A stretch of 64,000 bases of DNA from Auricularia sp. M13 (taxonomy: Eukaryota; Basidiomycota; Agaricomycetes; Auriculariales; Auriculariaceae), in NCBI GenBank assembly GCA_037042915.1, contig CM073203.1, positions 2,790,001 through 2,854,000 of the forward strand. The letters run 5' to 3'. Made by a program: the position numbers and the translations under genes. Of the stretch, positions 25,788 to 44,336 are shown in pieces. The notes beneath the pieces are model-generated. The model made no database searches. It was not told where the DNA came from and saw only the letters and a program-made list of their open reading frames with translations. How positions within the stretch are numbered: position 1 is the stretch's first letter; the number at the start of each line of letters is the position of its first letter.

Positions 25788-28700
25788 TCACAGCTTAGCC
25801 TGCCTCAATGCAACGCTATCCATCCTCACGCCCTCGTCGTCCTCCTCAGCGACCCGAAGGTCAGGAAAGACAGCGGGCATAATCCTGCGAGAAAAGTATT
25901 TATGAGATTGAGGATATCTATGCAAGCTCCGGAAGAGAACGAACATACCGTCTGGGCGTGGTGCCGGGAACGAGGCTGTACAGTGAAAAGTCGCGCACAC
26001 CGGCGACGTCGCGCAGGAAATCTTCATCGGTCGTAAGCAAGCCGTTTACACGCAGCGCCGGAGTGGCGAGGATCGCGAGCACTGCATCTGAGAAGATGGT
26101 CTAATATGGATGTTAGAATATGTGCGCAAAAGGGAATGCGCGCTGGTCAACTCACAGCCTTGCGCAGATCTCCTCGTCTCTCGCCCGAAGGGTCGTTATG
26201 TCTAGTTGCAGCGCTCTCGATTGCAGCGGCAGGCCAGATGCTTGTAATGGCCTTCCGAGATCCTTCGCGTTTCCAATCGTACGCGAGCCCTAGAGTTAAG
26301 GCAGACATTGCAAACTAGAGAAACATAGACGAGTCAGACTTCGTGCACAAGAGCGAAGGCGGTTGAGTATACCTTGCCCATGGCATACGCAGCCTTGCCC
26401 CGCGTAAATCGTGAGTATATCGGCGGGCTGACGACCACGATCCGCGCGTCGTCCGCAAGATGGGGCAGCGCTGCTGAGATGGTGGCGTACAATCCTTCCG
26501 GGTTCACGCGCTGCATGAGTTGGAAGCGCTTGAGCGGCTAGAACGGGGTTTAGAAAACGATAAAGCTGCGCAGAGGGTCGGACAAACCGTGTCCTTGACG
26601 CTCGCCCACCAAATTGCGCCGGAACTGTCGACATCGTACTTCAGCGGATGACCCTGCCTCGAGTACTTGCAGCGCACTTGTATACCAGCACGTCGAGCGT
26701 TCCGGATATCTGAGCGTATAGTAATGAGCAACGGATTGTCGTTATGATGGATCATCCATGTTGGTGCAACGTACCTTGACGGCTGCCTCAACCATAGCTT
26801 GTACGCTCGCCGGATCGCGCACGTCAACGGTAACAGCATGGGCCCGCCCGCCAGCCTTGACTATATCGTGGGCGACGGTGTCCACAGTGCTCTGTAAGCG
26901 AAACAATAAGCTTCGCTGGAAGATGAAGAGCGGCCCTACTCACCGATCGGGCCGGCTCCGCTCGGTCCCGAAGCGGACTCTGAAATCGTCGCCCAGGCTT
27001 TGGAAACGACCACCTCTGCTTCCATCCTTCCTTCGTCTCCCTCCGCGCCGCAACAGCCCTCAGCGCTGGTCTCTCCGCTGCACCCTGCCACGACGCGCAC
27101 AGCGGATGACCTAGACACGCCAAGTGACCACGCGAGGGCCCTGGCGGTGTCGAATGACCGTCGGAACAGGCGTCGCGCCTCCATGGAGGCCTTTGACGAG
27201 GCTGAATGGCCGCCTTTGCCGCGCGGCCGCTCGCGCGTCGCGTCCACACGCGGCTCAGTACAGATCGGCTCTCTGAAGCAGGTCACCTCGGTTGAAGGAC
27301 TGAGGAACATGCGCGCGCTCGCCAGCTCCACCACGTCAGCACAGCGGGCCGTATCCTCATCAAGAGAGCGACAGTTTCGCCCACTATCTGAACGCCCGCC
27401 GCCTCCTCCGCCCCCAGTCTTCCAGAAGCCCACGGAGCGTCAGCCAAGCGTACAAGGCTCTATGCCGCGCCGATCCTCCGCCAAGGCGCAGGGAATCAAC
27501 AGGCCGACCTCCAATGATGGCGGCGAGCAGGTATGCACACACGCCATACATCACAATGCTCCTCCTTAAATACTATGGTAGATCTTAGTTGAAAGCACTC
27601 AACCTGACGGATACGACGACGTCTTCTCGCAGCCCGATCATCCAATTGCCCGAGCGCCTCCTACCACGGCTGTGGAGAAAGCAGTGCGAAATGAAGCTCG
27701 GAACGGTCGCGACACCCGCCTGGGAGCGGGCTGCTGCCACAGCGAAGCGAATTTCCGCCCGTCTGTCCGACGCTAGGCCTGCCTCTTCGCACAGCCTGCG
27801 CTCACGCGCCCCGTCTCCGCCAGAAGCAGGCACGACCGCCGTGGCGCGCGAGAATGACGCAACTCCTCTCATCCTCCCCATGGACGTGGATGCAGACATG
27901 TCCGATGGCGACTACCACTACCCGGGCGAGCCTCCGGCCGCTCAGCCTGTGCGCGCGCACATCGAGGACGGAGAAGAGGAGCCTGAGTACGTCGAAGTCA
28001 GCGAGATCGAAGACCCAGACGACTCGGATCGCCAAACGCTTCACCATGCCTTTGACCAGCGCACCGTCCTCGTCGCGTCCAACAACGACAACGCCCCCCT
28101 CGATGGCCTAGTGCAGAATGGACACCTACTGCACATACTGCCCTCACAGCTCAAGGCCTGGGAGCTCCACGCAGGCAATAAAGCTATCTTTATCTGCGAC
28201 GACCTGGACGGTCAGGACCCCGCGACCATGAACCGCACCGCCGCTGTCAAGAAGATCACCCGCCAGTTCCAGGGAGCATGGCCAGGTAGCTCGCCGCAGA
28301 TCTCCCTCGCCGACCCCGACCCCAACTCGCCGCACAGAGTCCGAAAGAATACCTTCCTCATCAAGAACATCGACGACGAGCAGCTCGAAGCCATCACGGC
28401 CAGGAACCACTACATCATTGGTGTTGCGAAGATCACAACCTTCCCCTTCGACGTCCCCGTATCCCCGTTCATGGGCTCTGTGCCCGAAATCGACCTCGAG
28501 GCGAGCGAGGTCCGCGACATCATCATGGAGAAATGGGCGAAGGAGCCAAACGTGATACTAGTGTTCGACAAGCACTTGCGCCACCGCCAACCATCGACCG
28601 CTCTGCGCGCCGCATTCTTCAAGTCCATACGAGTTGCCCCGATGGTCACGAAGACACAGGGCGAACATGTCGTGGAATACAACATCTACGCCGACGCCGC

Positions 28701-31700
28701 CTACCTCTCGCCAGCCCTGCACAAGGAGCTCCGCGAGGCTCTTAGGAAGATACGTATCACGCACGACTTCGCCGGAGTCATCGCCCTTCGCGACCCGGAC
28801 TGGCGCTGCTCGGCATGCCCGAGCCGCGGACACCCCAGGGGCCTCTGCAAAACCCATGACGTGCCTGGCTGGCACACGCTCCCGACTCCCCCGCAAGCTT
28901 CCCAATCCTCCTCAAGAGGACGCGGAGGTGGCTCGTCCCGCGGCGCGTCCAACACGCGAGGAAACCGGGGAGGCCGTGGTAGCCGTAGCCATCTAGCCTG
29001 AGCTGAGACTCGAGCTGACTAACCCCGTCCCCGCTGTATCCTCCCCAGACGGTAGGACTGCAAATGTAGCATCGCGAAAGCTGAGTCCGAGTCTGCGCGA
29101 GCTCCCAAGCTGTCGGTTGCGCTCCTCGCCATATGCGTGTGCTCAATAAACTGCTGTCCATACACAGCGCCACGGCGCAGCTACATCGGAGTGACTACAA
29201 GACCAAGGTCCACCACGTGAGCACGCACTTCTCAAAGTGCAGAATGCCTGCGGTAAAGGCGAATCGGGTACCAGCAACGGTCCGCCAGAGTGGGCAAAGG
29301 CCCGTGCTATGAACCGGCATAGCGGCTGGGCACTCCTGGTCGGTCCTGCACTGTCCGTACAATCAGTGCCCTGAGCAACCTAAATTTACTGACCTACGGG
29401 TGCTGGAAAGTTGCCAGGAAAAAAGCGGGAGCCTATTTAGGCTGCGAACGTCCCGCGCGGAGACGCTTAAGCCCAATGGAACGCAGACTCGCCCGGGCAA
29501 GCTCTGCTAGTACTCTGGCGCATAGTTCGACGCGCTGGCCGTCAGCCAGCTGTGCTACACGGATGCGCTGGTCCGTGTATGCGAGATCGCAGCGCAACCA
29601 TCTCAATCCAGATCTTCCTCTCTCTCACGGTCAACGAATAACAGGCATCGGCAAACGATCCTCGAGTCAAGACCGGTGGAACTCCCTCCTGCCACTCCGC
29701 ACGGGAATGACGGACTCGAGGATATAGGCGGCAGGAACGCGGCGTCCGGAATTTCGGACACAGGGAGGGCGCAGGGGGTGGTGGACGGTTTTTCACCATC
29801 TACCATGCCTGTCCCTTCCCCTGACCGGTCGCCGCTCAACCTCACGGTCAATCGTGAGGCGGCCCCTGAGCCATGGACCCACCAGTCCGGAAGACCACGA
29901 CAAGTCTCTCCACCCTACGCGCAATCCAGCGTCCCGGCCATGCCGGGGTATACACCGTCTTGGGCACATTCTAGCCCTGTCTCACTTCTGAGCTCGCCAG
30001 CTCCACCATCCCAGCAATCGCCTGAAGTGAGCGCATCCACCGCAGTAAATGAGCCAGAACGAAATGCTGCAATTTCTAACAAAAATACCAGGACCTTCGT
30101 TCGCGTAGCCTCAGAGAACATGCGAGGACGCGGTGCGCCAGCGATAGCAGGGAGCATAAAATGGAAGAAAATCGCAGACGACATGAGACGACATAAAATT
30201 GGAATTATGGCAGTGCAGGAGACACATTTGTCCCCCGAGCACATCGACGAAATTAAACTTCTCTATGATCATCTCCACATCGAAAATACTGCGTCCACAG
30301 AGAATCCAACTGGTGCTGGTGGCGTCGCTATTATCGTCAACAAGCTTCTCACAAATTACAAATCGGTACGCTCCTTACAGCTGATTCCCGGCCGGGCTAT
30401 CCTAACGACAATGTCCTGGCACCGTGAAGAGTCCCTCACAATCGTAGCGATCTACGCTCCCACATCTGCCAGAGAGAACTACGAGTTCTGGAGAAAGCTT
30501 CGGCGTCTACTAAGCCGTACCCCACATGCATTCCCCAAGCCAGACGTTATGTTAGGTGATTTCAACTTCGTTGAAGACGCCATCGATCGCTTCCCTGCTA
30601 AATTATCGCGTATAGACTCACCAGCCTCATTCGACTCACTGAAAACCTATCTGAAGGTCCTGGATGGTTGGAGAGACACTTTCCCAAGCAGTATAGAATG
30701 GTCCTGGCGCAATTCCGCACAAACTGCTCTCTCGCGCCTGGATAGAATATACCTAACGAAGCCCATGCTTCGTAACAGTCGAGGCTGGGCTATACAACTC
30801 TCCAACTTGACCGTCAATGACCACAGCAGAGTGAGTGTCGAGCTGACTTGCAATAGTGCCCCAGCTGTTGGCCCGGGACGCTGGGCGATGAAGGAATCAT
30901 TGACAAGGGATGGCCGCTTCATGAGCAGTGTGAATAAGATCGGCAAGTCCGCAGCGCACAGACTCAAGACACTAACGGCGGTAGAGCGTAGCGACACGAG
31001 CAACCCGCAACAAATTTGGCAGGATTTTAAAAATGAGGTGATCGCATGCGCGAAGAAGCGCGGCCGCGAACTTGGCTGCGCTAGAGACTCTCGACTCAAG
31101 AAAGCAGTCGCCAGTAGAGAGGCCGCTGCGAAAGAACTCCTTACTGCGGACTCTGAGGAGTCGGCGATGGCTGCCAGAGAGCGCCTTAGCTCTGCAGAAG
31201 AAGCAGTAAGACAAACCCAGGACGAGGCTCACTCCAATATCTTCGACCATCGTACTACCCGTGCATGGGCGATCGGGGAAACGATGCATAAGGGTTGGTT
31301 CGCTTGGGCCAAGGAAAATCAGCCGAGAGAAGTCATTGCACATCTGCAGAGACCGGGCTCGGACCCCCCAGTCTACGTACAGGAATCACGCGGAATGTCA
31401 GAACTGGCGGGTGAATACCATCGCGACATTCAGTCCAAGGACATAAATGTCGATGAAGAACTGCGCCTCAATGCAACAGCTGTAGCGGTGCAAAGCATCA
31501 CAGCGAAAATTGAACGAGATGGTGCGCCTGACCTCTCCGGCTTCAGCCGAAGTATATCACGTGATGAGGTCATCGAGGCGCTCACGACCGCCAAAAATGC
31601 TTCCGCGGCTGGAGTCGATGGAGTGATTTACGAGCTTTGGAAGAGCCTGCATAGATTCTACTGCTCTACCAAGAACAAACCTGATCCTTGGTTCGACGTA

Positions 31701-34700
31701 GCCGGCCTCATGACGGCAGCTTACAACGATCTGGAACAGCATGGGCTCATGCCGGGTTCCACCTTTACCGACGGCTGGATGCGCCCCCTCTACAAGAAGG
31801 GAGATCGCAGCATGATAGAAAATTACAGGCCCATAACACTCCTGAACACGGACTACAAAATTTACACAAAAGCTTTGGCGCTCCGGCTTGCTAAGCTCGC
31901 CCCGGACCTGATACATGCGTCCCAAGCTGGCTTTGTGAGAGGTAGAAGCATTGCGGACCATACCAAGATCACGAGCCTGATCCTTAGCTACGCGGAGGCG
32001 GTAGAAGAAAACGGCGTTATAGTAGCCCTAGACCAGGAAAAAGCATACGATCGCATTCGGCACGATTACCTAAAACGGATACTGATAGCGTTCGGATTCC
32101 CAGATCTGTTCATCAGAGTGGTAGGTGCGCTGTACGACAATGCCTTCACCTCGGTGATGGTCAACGGTTTCCTTAGTAAGAAGTTCCGAGTAACCCGTGG
32201 CGTCAGACAAGGTGACCCCCTCTCCTGCCTCCTCTTCAATCTGGCCATTGAGCCCCTATCCGAAATGCTACGAACCTCTACCCTACTTGGTTTCAGCATC
32301 CCGGGCCTGAACCAGAAGCTAATTGCAACCCTCTACGCCGACGACACCACAGTTTATCTCCGTGAGTCCGATTCGTACGGCACGCTGCTCGCAATCTTAG
32401 ACAAGTGGTGTTTAGCAGCGGGCGCCCGCTTCAACGTGGCCAAAACCGAAATTATCCCGCTGGGATCCGAGTCATTCCGTGCAGACTTGCTGGCCGCCAG
32501 ACGCCTTCACGCCGATGACGAGCCTTTCCCGGCTGGCACCAGAATTGCGAGAGACGGGGAACCGACGAGAATTCTTGGCACCTGGCCCGGTAATGGCGTA
32601 GAAAATGCCAATGCCTGGTCGGTAATCACAGGGAGAGTACAGGACGCGCTGGCACGATGGGAACGCAAACGCCCCACGCTGCGCGGTAGAAGTATCATTA
32701 CACAGGTGGTGTGCGGCGGACACACGCAGTTCCTCACGGCCGCGCAGGGCATGCCGACAGAAGTTGAGAAGAAGCTCGACAAGATGGTAATGGATTTTTT
32801 CTGGAGCTCGTCCAAACGACATGCCATAAACACTACCTCCCTCCGAGGCCTCAGACGTGAAGGAGGCCTCAACCTGTTCCATGCCGCTGGCCGCAATGAT
32901 GCCCAGTATATCACCTGGCTTCGATCATTCTTAACCCCCTCGCCCACACGTCCGATTTGGGCTTTCTTAGCCGACGTTATCTTCAAATATGCAATTACGC
33001 GAAAAGACGCCCAGCGTATCCCCTTCCCTGCGCGCCAAGACCCTTTCAGCCAAAGCTGGCGGACGAATCCCAAAAAACTTCCCTTTATACTTCGACAGAT
33101 GGTAAGGGTTGCCGATAAGTACCACCTGGCCCTCGATGCCCCGGTCATTGCAAGCTCGATACGCGACCGGGCGGTGATCTGGGGCCACCCAGCGCTAATG
33201 AACGCATCTGCGCTGCATGGTAGACGTCCCCGCATGCGGTGCATAAAATCCACACACGCTGTAATGACCGTGGAGGATCTTGAGGAGATCGGCGAACAAG
33301 ATGATACGGACCACGAGGACGTATCGTCATGCGGCTGCACGAACTGCGCAGACGACCGCGTAGAAGGATGTGCGAAGCCACACCGTTGCCAAGCGCTAGC
33401 CAGAGACATACTGGGCGACATAGCACCCAAATGGAACCCAGCGACGGCAGTCTGTGATCCCGATAACGAGCTGTGGCAACTATTTGCGGACCAACGACAC
33501 ACGGCCATCGCTGACGGCGAGCCGATAGTATTTGACGCAACTCTCCACCAAGGACCGAACCAGGCAGATTATTTCCGGATCTTCGTACACTCCGTAGGAA
33601 TGGCCCCGCGCTCAGCGAGCGATGTTGTACGTGGGGATGCCGCGTCCCGCCGGTACGCGAGGAGCGCGGTTTCGGCCGTACAGGTCGTAATAGCAGCAGC
33701 CCTCTTCCGCGCAAACACACAAGATGTGAGCGGCGGCCTTGCCGCACACTTCCCTGATTTTGACGCACTAGATGCCACCGGCAGGTGCCCAGGAGAGTCA
33801 CACACGTACATCAGAAGTCTGGCCCTCGCGCTTGTCCTCGCCGTCCAGCGAGCGCCTCTAGATCGTCCGCTGCACGTTATAACAACATGCAAGCAGCTGG
33901 TTGAAATGCTTACCACACGCCTTGCCCACCACGAGAGCCGCGGCTGGATGGATATGCCACCGGAGGCGAACGCTCTGCGGGCAGCTGTCGCAGCCCTGAG
34001 AAGCAGAGCCTCTGAAGTGACCTTCACCTTCATCGAGAAAGCTAGAGTGAAGGCGTGGCCACAGGTCGCGAGTGCTCGAAAAATGGCAGTAATCGCAGCA
34101 GAGTTGGGCCCGGACATCCAAATAGATTTGTTGGAACACGCCGCTTTTGATAAGCCAGGCATAGCACTCAGCAGCATGAACCAGCGCCGGGCGTACCGCG
34201 CCATCCAGCACGCAACAGCTAGCGCAGCACCCCCACGTCGTGCGACGGCCGCGAATTTGAGCCTGGCAAGACTAAGCGTAAAGAGGGAATCCGGTTTTTC
34301 GCCGACCGACGCCCAAATATGGGAGAGTCTCCAGTCACGTGACCTTTCACGAAACGTGCGCAATTTCCTGTGGAAAGGCATCCACGGAGCGCACAAGATT
34401 GGTGCGTACTTCTCCAAGATGCCAGAACCGTGGCAATCCCACGGGACCTGCCCCCGATGCCATGTGCTAGAATCAATGCAGCACATCCTGTTTGAGTGCC
34501 CGGACACAGGGCATGAAGTCGTGTGGAGGATGGTGGAACGCCTCCTGTCGCACAAGAAAATTACGGTGAAGTTTGATATTGGCCTGGTGTGGGGCTGCGC
34601 GACTGCACGCTTCCCGGGCAACGGCGCGAACCGCTGCAAACCCTCTGAACGTTTTTTCCGCATCCTAGTGTCAGAGTCAGCTTTCCTCATCTGGAAGATC

Positions 34701-35444
34701 CGGTGCGAAACACGTGTGGGCCACGCGACAGACCCGGATTGGGTCCTGCCCACAGCAGACGTGATTACCCGCTGGGCCAAGATGCGCAGACTCCGCACCT
34801 CGCAGGACTGTTTACTGGCTAATCGCCGCCGCTACAAACATCATGCGGTGGACCGCTGGCTTGTCAAAGACACCTGGTCCAACCTCCTTGTGGTTAAAGA
34901 GATCTATTACGGGCGAGCACCCCGGCGAACCGGAGTTTTAGTGGGTACGGGAGGAGCGCATCGCGCAGGAATTGGCTAAGGCACAACCTCCAAGCCCCAC
35001 ACTGCCCCACTGGGCGTGTTAACGGCTATTTCTCCGGTTGGAGACATCCCTTTCTTCCTAGTCTCAGATGGCAAACCGCCATTTGTCCCAGCTCCCTTGC
35101 GGAAAAGAGTAATCCCAGGTCACTATGTGATTGTGGAAGCTCTGATGCTCCAAAAAAAAAAAAAAAAGAAACAATAAGCTTCTAAGCTGCCAGCCTGACC
35201 CCAGTGGAACTCACCGCGGGCGAATTGGGATCCACGCCTTCCAGTACAGCGCCTGGCGCGCTACGGGTCTTGGCAGCAATGATAACTGGATACGTGAGCA
35301 CAAGACCATAGCCGGGGATAATTCAGACTGACCGGAATAGCCGCCCTTGAGCGCGAGGTCCACGGCAACCTGGCGCCCCATGCCGCGAGATGCGCCGACC
35401 ACCAGCGCAGTCTTTCCTTGCTCTATGTGCGTCGAAGAGGCCAT
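25788..35444 (-). CDS. Short-chain dehydrogenase/reductase (HSDL2-like), split by an 8.25-kb LINE in an intron
   Basis: The N-terminal exon (35444 to about 35330) reads TALVVGASRGMGRQVAVDLAL, the NAD(P)-binding glycine motif. The next exon ends VLEGVDPNSPA at about 35214, followed by GTGAGT. The LINE and its target duplications then lie between this donor and the acceptor CTTACAG at 26889-26895, after which the gene goes on with STVDTVAHDIVKAGGRAHAVTVDV. Later exons give NSGAIWWASVKDT, QRVNPEGLYATISAALPHL, the active-site Ser in IVVVSPP and the YAMGK (YxxxK) catalytic pair. AITSIWPA and a C-terminus ...VALRQAKL with stop 25788-25790 follow. Without the LINE the intron would be about 55 nt. 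All joints keep frame, so the gene could still work if the 8.3-kb intron is spliced. HSDL2-type proteins are peroxisomal or mitochondrial; the substrate is unknown. Confidence 0.78.
26900..26914 (+). repeat. Target-site duplication, left flank of the LINE
   Basis: GAAACAATAAGCTTC, 15 bp, is identical to 35168-35182 on the other side of the element. Confidence 0.88.
26916..29001 (+). CDS. LINE ORF1 (gag-like RNA-binding protein) with an intron-like interruption
   Basis: Part one is open from the element's first bases to 27530; the first in-frame ATG is at 27183. Part two runs 27589-29001. Between them 27531-27588 begins GTATGC, ends ATCTTAG, carries stops in the relevant frames, and its removal joins the parts in phase 0, so it looks like a 58-nt spliceosomal intron. 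The joined protein is about 650 residues or more. It has a Pro/Ser/Arg-rich N-terminus and an acidic middle (EEPEYVEVSEIEDPDDSD). A globular region of about 300 residues follows, then a zinc knuckle CSACPSRGHPRGLC (CX2CX4HX4C) and a Gly-Arg tail (SRGRGGGSSRG). The role known for such proteins is to bind the element's RNA in the retrotransposition particle. Confidence 0.75.
29002..29675 (+). other. Inter-ORF spacer of the LINE
   Basis: About 670 bp between the two reading frames, with no coding pattern. The ORF2 frame is open from before 29676 and its first ATG is at 29805, so how ORF2 translation starts is unclear. Confidence 0.5.
29676..34979 (+). CDS. LINE ORF2: endonuclease-reverse transcriptase
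   Basis: A 1,767-codon open frame. The apurinic-type endonuclease domain covers about residues 140-400, with SENMRGRG, VQETHLS, YAPTS, MLGDFNFVED, LSRLDRIYL and NDHSRVSVEL, that is, the usual N, E, Y, D/N and SDH catalytic groups. The reverse transcriptase covers about residues 600-960, with MRPLYKKGD, ENYRPITLLNTDYK, SQAGFVRGRSI, VALDQEKAYDRI, GVRQGDPLSCLLFN and the active-site YADDTTVYL. A region around residues 1270-1500 has the layout of an RNase H fold (VITTCKQLVEML then NALRAAVAALRSR), but I do not see the usual acidic residues. The C-terminus has the finger CPRCHVLESMQHILFEC. It nicks the target and copies the RNA into it. No internal stop or shift was seen. Confidence 0.92.
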   Translation: MELPPATPHGNDGLEDIGGRNAASGISDTGRAQGVVDGFSPSTMPVPSPDRSPLNLTVNREAAPEPWTHQSGRPRQVSPPYAQSSVPAMPGYTPSWAHSSPVSLLSSPAPPSQQSPEVSASTAVNEPERNAAISNKNTRTFVRVASENMRGRGAPAIAGSIKWKKIADDMRRHKIGIMAVQETHLSPEHIDEIKLLYDHLHIENTASTENPTGAGGVAIIVNKLLTNYKSVRSLQLIPGRAILTTMSWHREESLTIVAIYAPTSARENYEFWRKLRRLLSRTPHAFPKPDVMLGDFNFVEDAIDRFPAKLSRIDSPASFDSLKTYLKVLDGWRDTFPSSIEWSWRNSAQTALSRLDRIYLTKPMLRNSRGWAIQLSNLTVNDHSRVSVELTCNSAPAVGPGRWAMKESLTRDGRFMSSVNKIGKSAAHRLKTLTAVERSDTSNPQQIWQDFKNEVIACAKKRGRELGCARDSRLKKAVASREAAAKELLTADSEESAMAARERLSSAEEAVRQTQDEAHSNIFDHRTTRAWAIGETMHKGWFAWAKENQPREVIAHLQRPGSDPPVYVQESRGMSELAGEYHRDIQSKDINVDEELRLNATAVAVQSITAKIERDGAPDLSGFSRSISRDEVIEALTTAKNASAAGVDGVIYELWKSLHRFYCSTKNKPDPWFDVAGLMTAAYNDLEQHGLMPGSTFTDGWMRPLYKKGDRSMIENYRPITLLNTDYKIYTKALALRLAKLAPDLIHASQAGFVRGRSIADHTKITSLILSYAEAVEENGVIVALDQEKAYDRIRHDYLKRILIAFGFPDLFIRVVGALYDNAFTSVMVNGFLSKKFRVTRGVRQGDPLSCLLFNLAIEPLSEMLRTSTLLGFSIPGLNQKLIATLYADDTTVYLRESDSYGTLLAILDKWCLAAGARFNVAKTEIIPLGSESFRADLLAARRLHADDEPFPAGTRIARDGEPTRILGTWPGNGVENANAWSVITGRVQDALARWERKRPTLRGRSIITQVVCGGHTQFLTAAQGMPTEVEKKLDKMVMDFFWSSSKRHAINTTSLRGLRREGGLNLFHAAGRNDAQYITWLRSFLTPSPTRPIWAFLADVIFKYAITRKDAQRIPFPARQDPFSQSWRTNPKKLPFILRQMVRVADKYHLALDAPVIASSIRDRAVIWGHPALMNASALHGRRPRMRCIKSTHAVMTVEDLEEIGEQDDTDHEDVSSCGCTNCADDRVEGCAKPHRCQALARDILGDIAPKWNPATAVCDPDNELWQLFADQRHTAIADGEPIVFDATLHQGPNQADYFRIFVHSVGMAPRSASDVVRGDAASRRYARSAVSAVQVVIAAALFRANTQDVSGGLAAHFPDFDALDATGRCPGESHTYIRSLALALVLAVQRAPLDRPLHVITTCKQLVEMLTTRLAHHESRGWMDMPPEANALRAAVAALRSRASEVTFTFIEKARVKAWPQVASARKMAVIAAELGPDIQIDLLEHAAFDKPGIALSSMNQRRAYRAIQHATASAAPPRRATAANLSLARLSVKRESGFSPTDAQIWESLQSRDLSRNVRNFLWKGIHGAHKIGAYFSKMPEPWQSHGTCPRCHVLESMQHILFECPDTGHEVVWRMVERLLSHKKITVKFDIGLVWGCATARFPGNGANRCKPSERFFRILVSESAFLIWKIRCETRVGHATDPDWVLPTADVITRWAKMRRLRTSQDCLLANRRRYKHHAVDRWLVKDTWSNLLVVKEIYYGRAPRRTGVLVGTGGAHRAGIG
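35168..35182 (+). repeat. Target-site duplication, right flank of the LINE
   Basis: It is identical to 26900-26914 and directly follows the poly(A) run of the element. Confidence 0.88.
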
Positions 35445-43189: not shown

Positions 43190-44336
43190 GATTTTTGGGT
43201 TGATCACCGAGTTTCGATCGTATTTCAAGGGTCCTTGGATTGCACTCCTTCGGAACGCCTAGAGTTATCGAGAAACCACAATCGTGCACTCCTATACATA
43301 TCTGGGCGTCCAGTTCCAATCAGATGCTCGCAATATGTTTGCGGCCCACTACAAATCAAGGGCAAGCAAATCAAGTGCGGCTGTGCACGCTGTACTCCAT
43401 ATTGACGCCATGGTTGATAGTCTGCCCCCGGTGGCGGCCAAGACATTATACATGGCGCGCATCGACCCGCTGCTAACATACGGCTGTGAGATAATGCCTG
43501 ACATAGATGAGCCACTTTTGGACAAACTGTCAGCCGTACAGTCCATGTTCCTGCGTCGAAACCTTGGAGTCCATGATCGCTCGGTGCTCGCACCTCTGTA
43601 CACGGAAACCAGCATCTTCCCTCTCCGTTTCCGCCGGATCGACATGACCCTCAGATACCTACAGTATACACTCTCTATGGCCCAAGACTCCTTCGTCAGT
43701 CAGGCCATAAAAGAGTGTATAGTGCTTACTGCGGCCGAACAACAGGGCTGGCTCATGGATTTACAGCTTGTCATTCTCAAGTTACGATCCCCAGTCCGTC
43801 TCCCCCCGCTGCACAGCCTCTCTGTAGAATCCGTCGAGGAATGCCGGTTGAGCATCATGGCTTGGATGCGTTCGGATTTACAGGCCCAATTGGACTCGAA
43901 CAAAAAACTCTACCTACTGCGTCACCGCCCTGGCCCCGTACTCGCGATGCGTCCTTATCTCCGCATTGATAATGATTTGCATCGTAAGGCACTGACTAGG
44001 GTGCTACTATCTTGCCATGCATTGGCAGTTGAGCGCCTGAGATGGCCAGAGCGCTATCGAGCGCGAGTAGATTACGACGACCGGCTATGCCGTCTGTGCA
44101 AAACTCATGTAGAGACAGCTGAACATGTCCTACTTGGATGCGCAGCAACTGCCGAAGTCCGAGCACTACGCGCCGCCTTCCTGAACGAAATGAGACAAGC
44201 CCATCCTACTTTACTGCCTCTGGTCCTATACAATGACCATGCGGTGTACCTACGGCTACTCATTTCATATGAGGACTCGATAGCAAAAACGGCAAAGTGG
44301 GTTTATGAGACGCTGGAGCAAGTCGAAAAGGTGTAA
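43190..44336 (+). mobile_element. 3' fragment of a second LINE (reverse transcriptase thumb and C-terminal finger)
   Basis: From 43284 a 350-codon frame reads SYTYLGVQFQSDARNM, then AAKTLYMARIDPLLTYGCEI, SAVQSMFLRRNLGV and FPLRFRRIDMTLRYLQY. This is the pattern of the thumb and post-RT region of non-LTR elements. It ends in a finger CRLCKTHVETAEHVLLGC and stop at 44334-44336. The stretch 43190-43283 (KVIFGLITEFRSYF) shows the preceding part in another frame. The endonuclease and palm domains are absent, so the copy is 5'-truncated, as LINE copies commonly are. No poly(A) or target duplication was found, so it is older than the 26.9-kb element and of a different family. It starts about 40 bp after the carboxypeptidase stop. 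Confidence 0.75.

Follow-up and report, generated by a model that had tools for sequence, protein, structure and literature searches.

We identified a LINE within an intron of a dehydrogenase gene in a 64,000-nt stretch of the Auricularia sp. M13 genome (contig CM073203.1, positions 2,790,001 to 2,854,000; hereafter the window). The gene encodes an HSDL2-like short-chain dehydrogenase of 313 amino acids and occupies nine exons on the minus strand (35444..25788); coordinates of all features are listed in Table 1. Exon limits and GT-AG intron limits were placed manually from the sequence and then frame-checked, and the spliced frame of 942 nt (313 codons and a stop codon) contained no internal stops. 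The earlier note had proposed that two distant coding segments were halves of one gene with intact coding joints, and this was borne out, as the 313-aa frame joins across the LINE with the same phase on either side.

Table 1. Features of the dehydrogenase gene and of the LINE located in its second intron (positions within the window)
Feature	Coordinates	Strand	Remarks
Exon 1	35333..35444	-	start codon 35444-35442
Exon 2	35215..35285	-	
Intron 2	26892..35214	-	8323 nt with LINE; 55 nt once flanks are joined
Exon 3	26775..26891	-	
Exon 4	26678..26709	-	
Exon 5	26588..26624	-	
Exon 6	26373..26537	-	
Exon 7	26156..26314	-	
Exon 8	25949..26100	-	
Exon 9, including stop codon	25788..25884	-	
Predicted mis-spliced 73-nt intron, exon-2 side	35142..35214	-	prediction; native donor, CTTAT, T16 and CAG in the LINE
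Predicted 52-nt intron, exon-3 side	26892..26943	-	prediction; GTGAGT in the antisense LINE to native acceptor
Target-site duplication, copy at LINE 3' end	35168..35182	.	GAAACAATAAGCTTC; antisense contains branch-point-like CTTAT
Target-site duplication, copy at LINE 5' end	26900..26914	.	
LINE (non-LTR retrotransposon)	26915..35167	+	8253 bp, slightly 5'-truncated; A16 tail 35152-35167
LINE ORF1, first part	26916..27530	+	start codon absent
Putative spliceosomal intron in LINE ORF1	27531..27588	+	58 nt, phase 0; proposed from this sequence and those of two related families
LINE ORF1, second part	27589..29001	+	470 aa; coordinates include stop
LINE ORF2	29526..34979	+	1817 aa between stops; encodes endonuclease (PF03372) and reverse transcriptase (PF00078)

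The dehydrogenase was assigned by a Pfam scan (adh_short, PF00106, E 1.7e-24) and by comparison with 303 distinct sequences of solved structures (E <= 0.001), in which human HSDL2 (3kvo) was the top match (E 3.9e-37, residues 9-278). The SDR domain possesses both cofactor and YxxxK motifs, and the glycine-rich GASRGMGR, YNSGA and AYAMGK segments align with HSDL2 residues; thus, the fungal protein resembles human HSDL2 in its short-chain dehydrogenase domain and in its cofactor and active-site motifs. Animal HSDL2 has an SCP2 domain at its C-terminal end. In contrast, Pfam reported no SCP2 family in the fungal protein at E <= 0.001.

We further searched for copies of this gene in the whole assembly (52,096,326 bases in 14 contigs), with exons scored separately and the best-scoring candidates retained; exons 4 and 5 are very short and were not expected to give matches of their own. 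Seven of the 13 matches were exons of the same gene. The other six were only 27-35% identical, so that no second complete copy was found among these candidates, an outcome that goes against the possibility raised in the earlier note of such a copy elsewhere, with the two segments as unrelated fragments.

The LINE is antisense to the dehydrogenase gene and lies between two copies of the target-site duplication, which are identical at 15/15 positions, with a match that extends on neither side. The donor GTGAGT starts at 35214, next to the end of exon 2, and the native acceptor CAG ends at 26892, next to exon 3. Both splice sites are located outside the LINE and both duplications, as had been claimed previously, with positions that required correction by 1-3 bases. 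When the flanks are joined, a GT-AG intron of ordinary size is restored, its seven sibling introns measuring 47, 65, 53, 50, 58, 55 and 64 nt; the excess length of intron 2 is thus due to the inserted LINE. The exact 15-bp duplication at both ends of an element that encodes reverse transcriptase and endonuclease, together with the same-phase halves of the frame, means that the arrangement exceeds chance, and the insertion is real. The previously noted antisense orientation and length of about 8.25 kb, and the normal size of the intron once the element is removed, also held.

The ORF2 product contains an apurinic-type endonuclease domain (residues 215-418, E 1.9e-9) upstream of the reverse transcriptase domain (residues 758-977, E 3.2e-34). 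By sequence criteria, these two domains, the A16 3' end and the 15-bp duplication classify the element as an APE-type non-LTR retrotransposon. Compared with relatives at C11 and C4, which begin further upstream, it is missing the start of ORF1 and the 5' region. The LINE is therefore not full length, and a fully intact element was ruled out. Such 5' truncation is usual for target-primed reverse transcription. No near-identical source copy was found in the assembly among the best-scoring candidates. Among the matches listed, the best relatives showed 67% identity in the reverse transcriptase region (1631 nt), 78% in the 3' end (257 nt) and 72% in ORF1 (724 nt), the last being one of three matches that included the LINE itself.

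Additional observations concern ORF1 and the other LINE copies. ORF1 seems to contain a spliceosomal intron: three families have a phase-0 GT-AG intron at a shared position (58 nt in the window LINE, 47 nt in the family formed by the C7:1937k and C4 copies, and 71 nt at C11), and its removal joins the two ORF1 parts in frame, with a frame break further on in the C4 copy. An intron kept in an element that is copied from RNA would imply that the RNA used for copying is left unspliced. More distant ORF1 relatives had open frames of 600-800 aa and may lack this intron. The C4 and C7:1966-1971k copies were 99.2% identical over 5193 bp and had different flanking sequences, the C7 copy being shorter at its 5' end, and to judge from these sequences they represent another LINE family that moved recently. 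A related copy on C4 (at about 1362.8 kb) directly abuts a coding sequence judged by eye to be cytochrome-P450-like, so that a second gene may be interrupted; a target duplication was not found in the stretch examined around this copy, nor in that around the C7 copy. The first base after poly(A) was G in 8 of 10 LINE copies, with GA in seven and GAA in five, which suggests a preferred nick site, the duplication being verified for the window copy only. Elsewhere in the window (43263-44336, plus strand), we observed a 357-aa open frame that by eye resembles the C-terminal part of another reverse-transcribing element.

The insertion is recent. ORF2 is still open over 1817 codons, which indicates a young element, and the identity of the two duplications was also counted for its youth. 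Under neutral decay, the open ORF2 places a ceiling on the age of 0.0023-0.0156 substitutions per site (95%), the two limits corresponding to indel-to-substitution ratios from 0.2 to 0. The length of the poly(A) tail counts mildly against extreme youth: it is A16 in the window LINE versus 30-43 in nine other tails, a difference that could reflect either greater age than the other copies or different priming.

In the same decay model, a host gene under no constraint would still be intact, splice sites included, with a probability of 0.40-0.56 at the age ceiling and 0.81-0.88 at the median age. An insertion this young would often leave even a dead gene with an intact appearance, so the intact joints are poor evidence of expression. 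Intact exons were rejected as proof of use, the intactness modeled without constraint being 0.40-0.88. The earlier note had argued from the intact joints that the gene may still be expressed; this was not supported, since youth alone would often leave the joints intact and both edges of the LINE carry competing GT-AG patterns of normal size that would divert splicing into the element.

These patterns were compared with the seven sibling introns of the dehydrogenase gene, which served as the yardstick for splicing. A genome-trained splice-site model was dropped: a finder based on coding scores gave 8 clusters, and a consensus-led version, with 11 candidates (3 in the control on reversed sequence), recovered only one of the seven ordinary introns known in this gene. 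On the exon-2 side, GTGAGT is followed by CTTAT, the T16 tract that is the antisense of the poly(A) tail, and GGAGCATCAG, with a CAG 10 nt past the tract that would end a candidate intron at 35142. In this 73-nt option, 33 nt separate the branch-point-like A from the 3' end, versus 9-24 nt in the seven siblings, and GGAGCAT stands between the T tract and the CAG. On the exon-3 side, a GTGAGT at 26943 would, together with the native acceptor, delimit an intron of 52 nt, with a CTTAT 15 nt from its end. Because the duplicated 15 bp contain CTTAT, a copy of this motif remains in both halves of the old intron. Within the 8253 bp of the antisense LINE there are 31 donors of at least 6/9 quality, which gives about an 8% chance, calculated post hoc, that one would fall 45-65 nt from the acceptor. 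In 8 of 10 LINE copies, all except those at C2 and C5:2781k, CAG or TAG occurred 10-12 nt past the T tract of the antisense tail, which can thus supply a ready-made module resembling a 3' splice site.

Use of the 73-nt option is predicted to give a stop after 86 aa (61 from the gene and 25 from the LINE), compared with 313 aa normally. Other predicted outcomes are 61 aa with an immediate stop if a TAG at 92 nt serves as acceptor, 100 aa with an AAG at 119 nt, and 71 aa on plain intron retention. Neither AATAAA nor ATTAAA was found on the gene strand of the LINE, which has one AATAAT at 33573; premature polyadenylation would thus not be specially favored.

One study infers from data on retained introns that basidiomycetes, too, use intron definition, for which it quotes a limit of about 200-250 bp in Drosophila (PMC2397502). 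In Cryptococcus, splicing was reported to be most efficient for introns of 40-60 nt, followed by those of 60-100 nt and then 100-500 nt (PMC11913375).

Considering these features together, we think that the allele is probably mis-spliced, with function lost or strongly reduced. Target-primed reverse transcription recently placed an almost full-length, 5'-truncated APE-type LINE antisense in the 55-nt intron 2 of a single-copy HSDL2-like gene, duplicating 15 bp of the intron. A spliceosome that pairs sites across short introns would then use the native donor with the CAG in the LINE, and possibly pair the native acceptor with the GTGAGT that the LINE supplies, so that the antisense LINE body would stay in the message between the two edge introns. 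The expected product would end after 86 aa, or 71 aa on retention, instead of 313 aa, and the exons would be intact only because the allele is young. Correct removal of the whole 8323-nt intron, LINE included, with the normal HSDL2-like protein still made, is in our view unlikely, although the native donor GTGAGT, the CTTAT, the acceptor CAG and the coding frame all survive, the LINE is antisense, and the gene strand is free of AATAAA and ATTAAA. It would have to overcome the competing normal-sized patterns of 73 and 52 nt at the two edges as well as intron definition as presented for basidiomycetes (PMC2397502), and the intact exons that might seem to speak for it are already expected from youth alone. 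With patterns of normal size at both edges and short introns probably recognized as units, we consider mis-splicing that abolishes function more likely than precise excision of 8.3 kb.

Two further explanations were weighed against mis-splicing. The 5' end of the LINE is just upstream of exon 3 (26915 versus 26891), and antisense promoters are reported for mouse L1 (PMC2176070), which would suit a locus giving two messages, one with exons 1-2 that ends in the LINE and one with exons 3-9 that starts in the antisense 5' region of the LINE and possibly encodes an N-terminally truncated protein. We regard this as quite improbable, given that the copy is 5'-truncated, that a promoter is purely hypothetical here, and that, in the HSDL2 alignment, exons 3-9 are without the N-terminal cofactor-binding segment GASRGMGR, so that their product would hardly be an active dehydrogenase. 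That the gene was already non-functional or unexpressed at the arrival of the LINE is very improbable: its 313 codons and eight GT-AG introns are intact, and the SDR motifs GASRGMGR, YNSGA and AYAMGK are present in the HSDL2 alignment. Nothing direct speaks for such a state, although low constraint would explain why the insertion was tolerated without a close paralogue.

The mis-splicing proposed here has parallels in mammals. Exonization in the mouse has been traced to antisense splice sites of L1 (PMC2176070), and the cases of antisense LINE-1 and Alu described there and in PMC2639721 resemble the fungal locus in the presence of an antisense element in a transcribed gene and of a T tract, derived from the antisense tail, beside a usable-looking AG. 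The fungal case differs in that host introns are about 55 nt long and, being short, are probably recognized as units, and in that it is known from sequence alone; as far as tested, the LINE family of the window is unrelated to human or mouse L1. Another basidiomycete, Marasmius oreades, has active LINE families, one of them Tad1-like, whose new insertions show 5' truncation of variable length (PMC9674265). These are similar to the window LINE in inserting in a basidiomycete genome and in being 5'-truncated; they were observed between clones, whereas the age of the window LINE is estimated from its sequence. We found no matching case of a fungal intronic LINE insertion with transcript analysis in the literature searched, in which subscription journals were thinly covered. 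A fungal metabolic gene with a transposon in one of its introns is also known from Fusarium, where Fot1, a DNA transposon about 2 kb long, was reportedly recovered in the nitrate reductase gene by loss-of-function selection; the element described here is instead an 8253-bp LINE. The present locus is therefore a new instance of a known phenomenon, unusual in its size ratio and in how cleanly it can be tested.

For annotation, the dehydrogenase gene would probably be called in pieces. For the biology of splicing, the locus offers a natural and recent test of how a fungus with short introns handles a large one, as a single insertion left both splice sites in place. If clean removal were true, the basidiomycete spliceosome would pass over two competing introns of normal size and splice one more than 100 times the ordinary length. 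RNA from this locus would directly reveal whether the spliceosome keeps to intron definition.
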